The notes under the pieces: generated by a model
What the model saw: only the letters and a program-made list of their open reading frames with translations
The model's database searches: none
Told to the model about the DNA's origin: nothing
Position numbers and translations under genes: made by a program
Source: Mycobacterium pseudokansasii
Lineage (GTDB): Bacteria > Actinomycetota > Actinomycetes > Mycobacteriales > Mycobacteriaceae
Direction: 5' to 3'
Length of the DNA: 64,000 nt
Assembly: GCF_900566075.1 (NCBI RefSeq)
Contig: NZ_UPHU01000001.1
Location: 2,790,001 to 2,854,000, forward strand
In this document: piece by piece, positions 36,701 to 40,489 of the stretch
Position numbering within the stretch: the first letter of the stretch is position 1
How the letters are laid out: each line of letters starts with the position of its first letter

Positions 36701-38066
36701 CTATCCGCCGAAGAGCAGATACAAGCCGGTGAACGTGTAGCCGACCATGACCAGCATCATGGTGAGCTGCCCGGTGAGCTGATAGCCCGCCGGGAGCAGC
36801 CGCAGCGCCTTGTCGTGTGCCGCGATCACCGCAACAACGTGCCCCGTGACCACGCACGCGACCTTGATCGTGGCTGCACGGGCGGGTGCGTGGACAACAC
36901 GTAGGCGACATGCAGGTGCGCCAGCCCCAGCAGGTTCCACCCCCGCGCGAATGGATCGGCAAGAGAAATGACCGTCTGCTGCCCACGCTCGACCAGGTAA
37001 GTCAAGTAGTGCGCGAAGATGTAACCCACCACGATCGGGATCAGCGAGTGCGCCATCTGCCCGGGCAAGGCGTGACGCCGCGGGCGGTCGACGTCGCCGG
37101 TGGCCCGCGCCGCTAGCGAAAACGACACTGCGACAACCGAAATGAAGACGAGCAGGCCGACGGTTCGCAACGCCGACGACGCCAGCGTTTCCGGCACACC
37201 GTGGACCGAGCCCGTCAGCCGGTCGGAGAAGTTGCGCCAGGTCGGTGACGACGAATAACTGTCGAACGCCGTCGAACCGAGCAGCACCGCCAGCATCATG
37301 ACCACCCCCGGGCGCACCGGCAGCGACGGCAGATGGTTGAACGGGTTGCCCACCACTACTTGCCCTGAGGACCGATTCCGCCAAAAAGGTGAAAGCCGCG
37401 AAACCGCCATGCTGTAGACGCCGAACGGGTCCGCTCGCGCCGGCCAGCGCTGGCCGCACAACCAGGCTCCGCCCAGCAGCACCACGGCGTAGACCAGTAA
37501 CCAGGTCCGCACCCCGGTCAGCGATGCCGGGTCCGGACTGGCCAATTCCATCCAGACGAAACCGAAGAGGCCCACCGCGGCCGGCCGGTACCCCCAGGCG
37601 TCGGGGCAGGCCGACCGCGGCCGACTCATGCGCTCCGGGATGCAACGTTGCAGCAGCAGATACACCGTCCGTACCGGCGAGATCACCCGCCACACCGGGC
37701 CGAACACCAGCGACACCGCCACCAACCCGACTCACAGCAGCACATAGAAGGCTCCCAGCAGGCCGTTGGCCTGCGTTTGCGGACCCCATATTCCGGCCAG
37801 CACCACCCACAGCGCGAATGCCAACGCCAGCCCGGCAGCTGTCCAGCGGGTGACGCGGGAATCAACCAGGGTGGTCACCGACCGGGGCAGCGGGTGTCCG
37901 GGCTTGGCCGGATCGAACCGTGGCTGCCGCCATGCAACTGCGACGAGGGCGAACGTGAACGTCAATGCCCAGGCCGCCCCGATCATCGCATAGGCGTACG
38001 GCACCGGCAGATCGCTCGACCCGCCAGGCCATGCGCCAACACCGCCATGCCGTCGGCGCCGGTCAC
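36701..38066 (-). pseudogene. Broken multi-pass membrane protein, last gene of cupredoxin-lipoprotein module
   Basis: A membrane protein of about 450 aa can be rebuilt from three frames. GTG 38066 overlaps the lipoprotein stop by 4 bases and reads VTGADGMAVLAHGLAG. At about 38020-38024 one G appears lost from a G-run, and the frame continues SSDLPVPYAYAMIG. At 37732-37734 an in-frame TGA interrupts GAFYVLL*VGLVAVSLVFGP, consistent with Trp TGG to TGA. Near 36890 another single-base change separates LAHLHVAYVLSTH from APARAATIKVACVV, after which the last helices run to the stop at 36701. The rebuilt protein has about ten hydrophobic segments. Three independent lesions argue for a true pseudogene rather than sequencing error. 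Family not recognised. Confidence 0.82.
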
Positions 38067-38425
38067 GGCTGAACGTGAGTCGTGGCGATGGTGCGTTTGA
38101 GGTGATGCAACTCGACGTCGACGTTGCCGGGCACATCCACGCTGAACTGAAACGTCTGGTTCGGCGCGGTTGCGACCTGGAACTTGTGATCGGGCACCGA
38201 GTGCACGTGCAGTTCATCAGCGGCGTCGCTGGTGACCCGCAGGGTGATCGGCTCCTCGACCCTGGCCTGCAGGGTGGCGTTGGCCGGCGTTACGTGGCCA
38301 TTGGCGATGGTGACATCGACGGCAAGGCTCGGGGTCGCGGCGGTGGGCTGGCTCGGCGCGCCGCCGCAGGCGGCCATACCCCACATCAGCACCGGCACCC
38401 AGGTGCTGGCAAGGCGGCGAATCAT
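38063..38425 (-). CDS. Lipoprotein with cupredoxin-like fold
   Basis: 120 aa. A signal peptide with lipobox MAAC is processed at Cys20, so the protein is membrane-anchored outside the cell. The mature part (VDVTIANGHVTPANATLQARV, then PITLRVTSDAADELHVHSVP) has the beta-sandwich pattern of EfeO/cupredoxin-like domains. It is rich in histidines at positions expected near a metal site (HVH, PDH, HH), though the classical blue-copper Cys is lacking. Start ATG 38425 lies 5 bases after the upstream stop, and the stop overlaps the next, broken gene. Metal binding is inference. Confidence 0.75.
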   Translation of the reverse strand: MIRRLASTWVPVLMWGMAACGGAPSQPTAATPSLAVDVTIANGHVTPANATLQARVEEPITLRVTSDAADELHVHSVPDHKFQVATAPNQTFQFSVDVPGNVDVELHHLKRTIATTHVQP

Positions 38426-38429
38426 GGCG

Positions 38430-40265
38430 CTACGCCGCTCGGGGAAGAGGTTGTTTCTCCTCTTCGGACTCCCTGGGGGCAGTCTCGGCGGCATTAATCC
38501 GGCCCGCGCCCCACGTCAGCGCCGCAATCACCAGCAGCGTGAAGATCAGCACCACCACCGATCCCGTGGTGAACAACCACAACGGCGTGCTCTGATCGCG
38601 TTCGCGCTGAAGAATCGTGATTTCCTGGACAAACGGCCTGGTGCTGGAAGCCAAGGCCGGCACCTCAGCCGCCGGAATGGCCTCATCGGCCGGCTCGTAA
38701 ATCGGCACGGCGGTCGTGGTGTAACCATCTTGAACCCGCAGCAGGGTCTTCCACGAACCCCAGACGGGAACCTGCTGCGTGGACCGATAGTGGCCGGGGC
38801 CGACTCGATCGAGTCGGTCGATCACCAGGCCGCGGCGGTTCTGCATGCCGCCCTGCCAAGACAGGATCGTGACCCATTCCGGATTGCCCTTGACCAGGTC
38901 GGGCGGGTTGATCTGCACGTCGGCCGACACCATGCGCTGGCCCGGGTCGCTAGGAAGGTCGGTCAGCGTGATGGTCGCGTTCGCCCGCTCCGGAACGACG
39001 ATGTGCAGGCCGTTGGCCACTGCGCCGCCGATCGCCAACACCGTTACCATTACGACCGCGATTCCGATACCGCGACGCGGCAACCGCTGGCCGGTGAGCA
39101 CCATGCCGGTCATCGCCCCGCATAGCCCGGCCAGCACCGCCACGGGCACCGCCATCGCCAGCGCCTCGTCCCACATGCTGACCGGCCACGGATAGTGATA
39201 GACCGCCCCGATCCACAGTGATTCCAGCCACAGCCCGACAGTGCCGACACCCAGGCCGGCGACGGCGCCAAAAGCGATCGGACGCTTGAACACTGGGGTG
39301 AACGCCAGCAATTCGACCACGACCGCGGGACCCAGATACAACGGGAACCAGTTCGTCGGAGCCCCCAAGATCGGTCCCACCAGCAAGGCAACCGCCCCGC
39401 GCAGCGCAATGGCGAACAACGCCGCCACGATCGCGGCGCCACGGCCCATCGTCATGCGAGCCACGACCAGACCCAGCGCAGCGGCGCCGGCGATCATCAT
39501 CGGCTGCAGTACCAGCCGGAACTGCTCCACACCGAAGTCATATTCGATCTGGTAGACCGACAAGCCGATCAGCAATCCGCCGCAGGACAGATAACGCAGG
39601 AATTTCACGAACCGACGTTCGGTATCCCCTTCTGACTGGGCCCGCCCGCCTTCGTACTCCAGCATGAGCACCGCGAACAGGGAAAACCCCGCGCCGCCGA
39701 TCATCATCAAGTGGGTCGGGCCCCAGAGGGTGACGTCCTGGCCGAAGATGCGGTGCCAGATGTCGTCCAGCGGAAAGCCGATCATCGCGTAAAGCCCACA
39801 GCCGGCCATCAACACACCGCCGACCGGGGCGTGCCAGTTGCTGGTGATGCGCACCGGGGCGGGTCCCGGCTTGTCGAAAGGCAGCACCACCGCGATCATG
39901 CCGGCCAGGAATACGCCGAACAGGCCGATGATGATGAAGTAATGAGCCGGGTTGGCCAGCGGGCCGGAATCGCGGCCGCTGCCGATGTGCCAGCTGACAT
40001 CCCAGATGAAGCCGAACAGCGCGCAGATGATCGACGTGGTGAAGACCAGCACCGGCAGCGCCACCCAAGAGGGGCGTTTGAACTTGACGGCCATCCAGTC
40101 GGCGAATCTGCCGAGCCAGCTGATCCGGTGACTGCGGTGCGCATGACCGATCCACAGCATCACCACCGTGATCACCACGGCGGCTATCGAAAGGCCGATC
40201 ACTTGATGCAACCCGGCACCACGCGCGGGAGCGGCCTCCGCGACAACCGTCAAACCCATCGCCAT
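38430..40265 (-). CDS. 611-aa polytopic membrane protein with C-terminal extracytoplasmic beta domain
   Basis: About twelve hydrophobic segments fill residues 20-430. A conserved-looking aromatic/charged element WDVSWHIGSGRD follows the third helix, and further acidic/His residues (DDIWHRIFGQD, THLMM) lie in or near the membrane. Residues about 435-560 form a soluble beta-rich domain (DVQINPPDLVKGNPEW, PGHYRSTQQVPVWGSW) reminiscent of YtkA/FixH-like domains from copper and haem-copper oxidase loci. One last helix and an acidic tail follow. It is flanked by a His-containing micro-protein and a cupredoxin-like lipoprotein, so a copper- or redox-related membrane complex is a reasonable guess only. 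CTGGAGGCG precedes the ATG. Confidence 0.8.
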   Translation of the reverse strand: MAMGLTVVAEAAPARGAGLHQVIGLSIAAVVITVVMLWIGHAHRSHRISWLGRFADWMAVKFKRPSWVALPVLVFTTSIICALFGFIWDVSWHIGSGRDSGPLANPAHYFIIIGLFGVFLAGMIAVVLPFDKPGPAPVRITSNWHAPVGGVLMAGCGLYAMIGFPLDDIWHRIFGQDVTLWGPTHLMMIGGAGFSLFAVLMLEYEGGRAQSEGDTERRFVKFLRYLSCGGLLIGLSVYQIEYDFGVEQFRLVLQPMMIAGAAALGLVVARMTMGRGAAIVAALFAIALRGAVALLVGPILGAPTNWFPLYLGPAVVVELLAFTPVFKRPIAFGAVAGLGVGTVGLWLESLWIGAVYHYPWPVSMWDEALAMAVPVAVLAGLCGAMTGMVLTGQRLPRRGIGIAVVMVTVLAIGGAVANGLHIVVPERANATITLTDLPSDPGQRMVSADVQINPPDLVKGNPEWVTILSWQGGMQNRRGLVIDRLDRVGPGHYRSTQQVPVWGSWKTLLRVQDGYTTTAVPIYEPADEAIPAAEVPALASSTRPFVQEITILQRERDQSTPLWLFTTGSVVVLIFTLLVIAALTWGAGRINAAETAPRESEEEKQPLPRAA

Positions 40266-40360
40266 CGCCTCCAGGTCCAGGCCCGTGGAATCTATCGGCG
40301 GGCCGCTGACTCGTTCCGCATGTCGGATGCCCAGACGAAGCGCTCGTCAATCCTGTTTCG

Positions 40361-40489
40361 TCAGCTGCGCCGGTCGCGCATGGCGACATAAAGCACCACA
40401 GCGACGGCGATGACAGCGGGCAAGAACGCCGGTATCGCCAGCAAAAGCGCATGGTGAGCCGCGTACTCGACGTGCAGGTGAGTCGTCAT
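40361..40489 (-). CDS. 42-aa single-helix membrane micro-protein with N-terminal histidines
   Basis: The reading MTTHLHVEYAAHHALLLAIP then AFLPAVIAVAVVLYVAMRDRRS has four His (H4, H6, H12, H13) ahead of one clear transmembrane helix and a basic cytoplasmic end. It is the likely first gene of the leftward module (next gene 95 bp away). The size and one-helix pattern recall small oxidase-type subunits, but no family is assigned. The start at 40489 faces the bioB promoter region. Confidence 0.6.
   Translation of the reverse strand: MTTHLHVEYAAHHALLLAIPAFLPAVIAVAVVLYVAMRDRRS

Follow-up and report, generated by a model that had tools for sequence, protein, structure and literature searches.

The window analysed here, a 64,000-nucleotide stretch of the genome of Mycobacterium pseudokansasii (6.43 Mb, two contigs), carries on its minus strand a set of four genes, hereinafter referred to as g1, g2, g3 and g4, the last as remains only. 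The intact gene g2 (38430..40265), recognized from open reading frame, profile, predicted-structure and selection evidence, encodes the 611-amino-acid polytopic protein that an earlier note on this DNA had described. We see about an even chance that g2, a single chain, is remotely related to the copper membrane monooxygenases (methane, ammonia and hydrocarbon monooxygenases; pMMO, AMO and HMO) and works as an O2-activating copper enzyme. The earlier note had thought of copper handling or of an oxidase- or oxygenase-type complex; this direction was borne out, and the PmoC/AmoC motifs and the PmoA-like half described below make it more specific.

In PmoC, the CuC site consists of Asp156, His160 and His173 and the CuD site of Asn227, His231 and His245, according to PMC12576850, which also mentions a proposal that catalysis takes place at CuD. 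All six of these ligand positions had a counterpart in g2, the sole exchange being Asp for Asn. Site 1, D89-V-S-W-H93-x4-R98-D99-x6-P106-A-H108 (39942..40001), was assigned as the equivalent of the CuC ligands by its invariance and its AmoC/HmoC pattern, and site 2, D167-x3-H171-x5-D177-x5-P183-T-H185 (39711..39767), as the equivalent of CuD by its invariance and its AmoC spacing. D89, H93, R98, D99, H108, D167, H171, D177 and H185 were invariant in 22 diverse g2 homologues, and then in 54 of 54. The spacing of the CuD pattern, His-x13-His, was identical at H171/H185; the CuC pattern, Asp-x3-His-x12-His, was found at D89/H93/H108 with the last His lying two residues further along, and exactly in a family of short paralogues of g2. 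The Asn of CuD was not kept, being replaced by Asp167 in 54/54 g2 homologues and by Asp106 in the short paralogues. The motifs of true C subunits are D-A-S-W-H-x4-R-D-T-x-F-T-P-S-H and N-E-F-G-H-x5-E-x5-P-L-H, the second motif of AmoC having the spacing N-x3-H-x13-H, and those of the short paralogues are D-D-A-W-H-x4-R-D-x5-P-H and D-x3-H-x5-D-x4-S-P-P-H, with ligand distances as in AmoC. No invariant or near-invariant His that could be a counterpart of the PmoB His brace was present in g2 residues 420-560. The two g2 motifs (39711-40001) also resembled each other, and site 2 gave a weak second alignment with AmoC site 1 (E 0.28); this likeness hints at an old internal duplication.

The link between g2 and AmoC goes via the short paralogues, because g2 alone gave a weak comparison. 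When the Pfam AmoC model was run over 297 Mycobacterium genomes, matches were obtained in 24, including six true C subunits that passed the cut-off; hydrocarbon-monooxygenase-type C genes above this cut-off were located in 6 of the 297 genomes (L178-L183). Directly below the true C subunits stood six 486-amino-acid proteins, which aligned to AmoC positions 119-226 with E values of 0.004-0.09 and scores of 13-18 bits against a cut-off of 26.7. Their profile matched g2 at E 3.3e-39, which identified them as short paralogues of g2. Members of this family of about 485 amino acids (L184-L189 and L195-L197, at about 1400-2900, on the reverse strand in L189 and L197) had the same six ligands and layout as g2, with a spacing closer to that of AmoC, and differed from it in their shorter length and in the absence of g1, g3 and g4 from the loci read. 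One short paralogue matched two NCBIfam AmoC models (E 0.0043 and 0.018) and no others, and in Pfam two of three short paralogues gave a weak AmoC match and the third none.

In an hhalign comparison, the N-terminal half of the short paralogues aligned with a set of nine AmoC sequences, built from plasmid records, at E 8.1e-6 over 91 columns, with both sites in register, while the control comparisons with reversed AmoC, AmoA and AmoB gave 0.51, 0.54 and 0.35, respectively. The score of 43.8 was reached by none of 100 column shuffles (mean 14.3, maximum 32.9). The full-length comparison kept the same register (E 3.9e-5), as did a comparison using 120 paralogues (score 34.5, E 2.2e-4), for which shuffles scored at most 23.9 (0/100 reached it) and the reversed control 19.5. 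For g2 alone, E values of 0.009 and 0.019 were obtained, 3 of 100 shuffles were as good, and the curated AmoC cut-off yielded no match. Taken from the sequences, homology of the N-terminal half to AmoC/PmoC is well supported. The profile comparisons with AmoA and AmoB were not significant, and no AmoC relatives were found in viral contigs and phage records. In the genome of the window, the AmoC model gave no match at E 10 in the search that had matched in 24/297 genomes, AmoA and AmoB not being part of that search.

The predicted structure of g2 was divided into an AmoC/PmoC-like membrane part (residues 66-209; 39639..40070), a second membrane part (residues 209-419; 39009..39641), an outer beta domain (residues 425-545; 38631..38993) and a final membrane helix seen in the secondary structure of the model (residues 562-595; 38481..38582). 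In the model, the second membrane half resembles PmoA and the outer domain resembles FixH/CcoH, in agreement with the outer domain that the earlier note had placed at the C-terminus. Compared with FixH/CcoH, which acts in the assembly of cbb3 oxidase, and with YtkA-type domains, g2 differs in that its domain is fused behind about eleven membrane helices carrying metal-site motifs, and in that g2 itself has no Pfam match. Foldseek searches with the whole g2 model and with its N-terminal half gave no match below E 0.001. PmoC was not among the matches listed for the whole model in the structure comparison, and for the N-terminal half it ranked alongside other helix bundles, with cytochrome b561 among the fold matches. 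Because these comparisons did not single out PmoC, the relationship to PmoC rested on sequence.

No match to g2 was found in Pfam or NCBIfam, and no relevant one among PDB sequences, where none of the three sequences searched gave a relevant chain. Named relatives of g2 among the matches listed were annotated only as "hypothetical" or "uncharacterized protein", as were those of the paralogues. No description of the family was found in the literature searched, whose coverage left out most subscription journals. The g2 family is thus without a family name and, as far as searched, undescribed. The ratio of nonsynonymous to synonymous substitution (dN/dS) between the window copy of g2 and four relatives was 0.084-0.116, compared with 0.097 for bioB against one relative; these values indicate that g2 is under purifying selection and is more than a chance open reading frame. 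Among the matches listed, M. gastri, M. kansasii, M. szulgai and M. angelicum supplied the nearest relatives. Of 198 Mycobacterium genomes, 138 gave a match to g2 at E <=0.001; in 135 of them E was below 1e-200, and the remaining three held weak matches or fragments. Across the phylum, g2 was matched at the same threshold in 45 of 396 genomes, some of these matches being of the short or the distant type; g4 was found in 72 of the 396.

For the surroundings of g2 in mycobacteria, the best 80 of 567 loci found by similarity, from named organisms, were examined. For each of g1, g3 and g4, 77 of the 80 loci had a homologue no more than 2.5 kb from g2 and on its strand; 76 loci had all three. The exceptions were two second copies (L105 and L126) and contig ends (L067 for g3 and g4; L101 for g1). 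The g1-g2-g3-g4 set is therefore a real unit, and the lack of co-occurrence in other genomes, which the earlier note had named as grounds for giving up its proposal, was checked and was not what we found. Outside genome G407 and the family to which the window copy belongs, 26 g2 loci were read, and in the fetched stretches none contained a recognizable g1, g3 or g4; some of the contigs were short, three genomes were represented by two loci apiece, and diverged forms may have escaped the g1 and g3 models. An obligate four-protein complex was rejected on this basis. Among 20 loci with g4 away from g2, a g3 homologue adjoined g4 in 12 and a g1 homologue in one; four more g4 loci (L236, L242, L244 and L250) had, by eye, another small His-containing membrane peptide. 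Since g3 lies beside g4 in 12/20 of these g2-free loci and the outlying g2 genes stand alone, g3-g4 forms a module of its own, which g2 and g1 have joined in mycobacteria and their kin. In the 396-genome phylum draw, g2 and g4 occurred together in 23 genomes, against 8.2 expected if independent, an excess inflated by shared ancestry, and they were adjacent in 14 of the 23.

On the minus strand of the window, the genes follow the order g1, g2, g3 and remains of g4, flanked by the 2'-5' RNA ligase-like gene and bioB. Only 4 bases separate g2 from g3, g3 and g4 overlap by GTGA, and 98 bases separate g1 from g2, in keeping with the leftward coupled arrangement reported earlier. The 42-amino-acid single-span membrane peptide with four His noted there was likewise present as g1 (40364..40489), supported by homologues near g2 and by conservation; its family pattern was A.H..lLA.PAf.PA........A..dRR. 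The His-bearing cupredoxin-like lipoprotein of the earlier note corresponds to g3 (38063..38425), a 120-amino-acid cupredoxin-like putative lipoprotein recognized from its open reading frame, weak profile matches and conservation. It matched Cupredoxin_1 at E 0.0038, and two orthologues did so at 0.00054 and 0.055 and a third not at all, all under the Pfam cut-offs; its homologue in L140 matched the NosZ model at E 8.9e-6, also below the cut-off. The conserved motifs were DelHVHs.P.h.F and ELH, and in the aligned domain of 83 sequences there was no conserved Cys or Met, conserved His being found instead. By this alignment, the Cys ligand of type-1 copper is not conserved in g3.

The second polytopic protein was not found as the intact gene that the earlier note had supposed. 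Frame reading and the intact relatives elsewhere showed that g4 (36701..38066) is a remnant, with a frame shift a little before 38010, an in-frame TGA at 37734-37732 and a further frame shift near 36870; a search of its own genome returned the two pieces with one TGA and no other copy. With the gene broken, the system in this genome probably either is in decay or does without g4. Intact orthologues were present in most relatives, although both g3 and g4 were broken in M. ostraviense (L110:11841-13545) and the g4 frame looked short in M. genavense (L093:12915-13508). Judging from the reading frames, decay of the operon seems to be under way in some slow growers, with g2 still under constraint. 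Several intact relatives or orthologues of g4 carried "Fenitrothion hydrolase" in UniRef as a name only, and no literature on fenitrothion hydrolase bearing on g4 was found. The earlier statement that no family name fits thus holds for g2 and not for g4, which shares this name through its orthologues; g4 differs in being broken in the window and in having a g3 homologue beside it in 12 of the 20 stand-alone loci. A second g4 with a g3 homologue was found in genome G011 (L252:4531-7313), divergent from ctaE, which encodes subunit III of the aa3 oxidase.

Of the 80 mycobacterial loci, 48 had bioB in the fetched flank, which agrees with the placement in the biotin locus made in the earlier note; 22 had a pncA-like gene instead and 10 had neither. 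In a FastTree phylogeny of g2, the biotin-locus copies, the window included, fell into a clade of 50 members, of which they accounted for 49 and a contig-end copy for the other; the support for this branch was low (0.34). The address label required 6 changes on the tree, against at least 26 in 200 shuffles. From the address counts and the g2 clade, the operon has been kept together at two addresses, probably with a single move into the biotin locus.

Where g2 stood alone, its neighbours included an alpha/beta hydrolase gene overlapping by four bases (L142) and genes for an FMO-type enzyme (L143), an acyl-CoA dehydrogenase (L146), fatty-acid desaturases (L152 and L153), an epimerase and a P450 (L155), and MerR- or TetR-type regulators. 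Other neighbours were glnA (L160), a nuoN-like gene (L149), cysS (L150), a ParA-like gene (L154) and an aminotransferase gene (L158), together with, by eye, a second glnA (L161), moaA-like genes (L159, L162, L164, L165 and L167) and flagellar genes (L157). As a rule for all loci, a lipid-metabolism context was rejected, being seen at some of them only. The neighbour genes were chosen by GC3, a rough procedure that leaves spurious frames, and the Pfam scan covered 18 neighbours picked as nearest or most telling, of which 16 received a family, so that the count is biased. A divergent MerR-family regulator of about 245 amino acids was confirmed by Pfam at two loci (L153:9750-10475 and L164:3073-3837) and seen by eye at L158, L159, L162, L165 and L167; these regulators are longer than is usual for copper MerR proteins. 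The genes of the short paralogues often stood, by eye, beside a divergent TetR-like gene, and a multicopper oxidase gene lay near the short-type gene in L169.

pMMO and AMO oxidize methane and ammonia. Copper membrane monooxygenases are encoded as three subunits, xmoCAB, as set out in PMC6215863. Like pMMO, AMO and the actinobacterial HMO, g2 has both PmoC motifs with the flanking W-H, R-D and P-x-H and, in the predicted model, a PmoA-like second membrane part followed by an outer beta domain. It differs from them in being a single chain of 611 amino acids, in the exchange of the CuD Asn for Asp, in the absence of the PmoB His brace, in falling under the curated AmoC cut-offs and in its other partner genes. 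As judged by sequence, g2 resembles these enzymes yet is not classed as a member, since it departs from them in the three subunits, the CuD Asn, the His brace and the curated cut-offs. As such a relative, g2 would have in its first membrane part the counterpart of subunit C, with two copper-type sites (D-H-H and D-H-H), and in its second part a PmoA-like fold, and the FixH/CcoH-like outer domain would stand in for the cupredoxin domains of PmoB. Copper is suggested because of the two sites and the cupredoxin-like partner, and O2 activation because of the likeness to monooxygenases. Most likely, g2 would bind copper on the outer side of the membrane, activate O2 and oxidize a lipid-like or hydrocarbon substrate, and the g3 lipoprotein, the polytopic g4 and the small g1 peptide may supply copper or electrons.

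A role in copper trafficking is a possible alternative of lower probability, in which g2 would be a PmoC-related, non-catalytic protein that captures outer copper together with g3, g4 and g1 and passes it to enzymes such as the aa3 oxidase, the FixH/CcoH-like domain being the business end. That domain, the additional g3-g4 pair lying divergently to ctaE in G011 and the multicopper oxidase in L169 argue for copper and partly for trafficking, but two complete, invariant copper-type membrane sites and a PmoA-like half exceed what a chaperone needs, and none of the 18 scanned neighbours of stand-alone g2 was a known copper protein, whereas several were lipid enzymes. It is improbable that g2 is a membrane enzyme of PmoC-related fold and ligands using zinc, iron or manganese for hydrolysis or electron transfer. 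D-H-H sites are usable by many metals, and the Asp in place of Asn makes both sites D-H-H; the cytochrome b561 among the fold matches of the N-terminal half and the fenitrothion hydrolase name of some g4 relatives point the same way. Against this stand the ligand spacing and the flanking W-H, R-D and P-x-H, which AmoC has too, as well as the cupredoxin-like partner g3. That the D-x3-H motifs coincide with AmoC by chance, and that the PmoA match reflects common helix packing, is very unlikely, given that no shuffle in 100 reached the score of the paralogue profile and that sequence, for the first half, and predicted structure, for the second, both name the same enzyme.

Where in pMMO the active site lies is a matter of long-standing dispute (as stated in PMC12576850), and a one-chain relative that keeps both PmoC sites and lacks the PmoB His brace would be a natural test of which site matters. 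We tentatively propose that most Mycobacterium species carry a one-chain copper membrane monooxygenase, a fusion of the form C-A-(outer domain), that hydroxylates a lipid-like or hydrocarbon substrate and is supplied by a cupredoxin module of its own; the three-subunit methane and ammonia enzymes may then form a single branch of a larger superfamily that has ancient members among the actinobacteria. If g2 is such an enzyme, an undescribed copper enzyme would be present in about two thirds of the sampled Mycobacterium genomes (135/198, E below 1e-200) and, more sporadically, elsewhere in the phylum (45/396). The paired copper-site motifs of these enzymes, present here in a single chain, suggest a branch of copper enzymes that has been overlooked.

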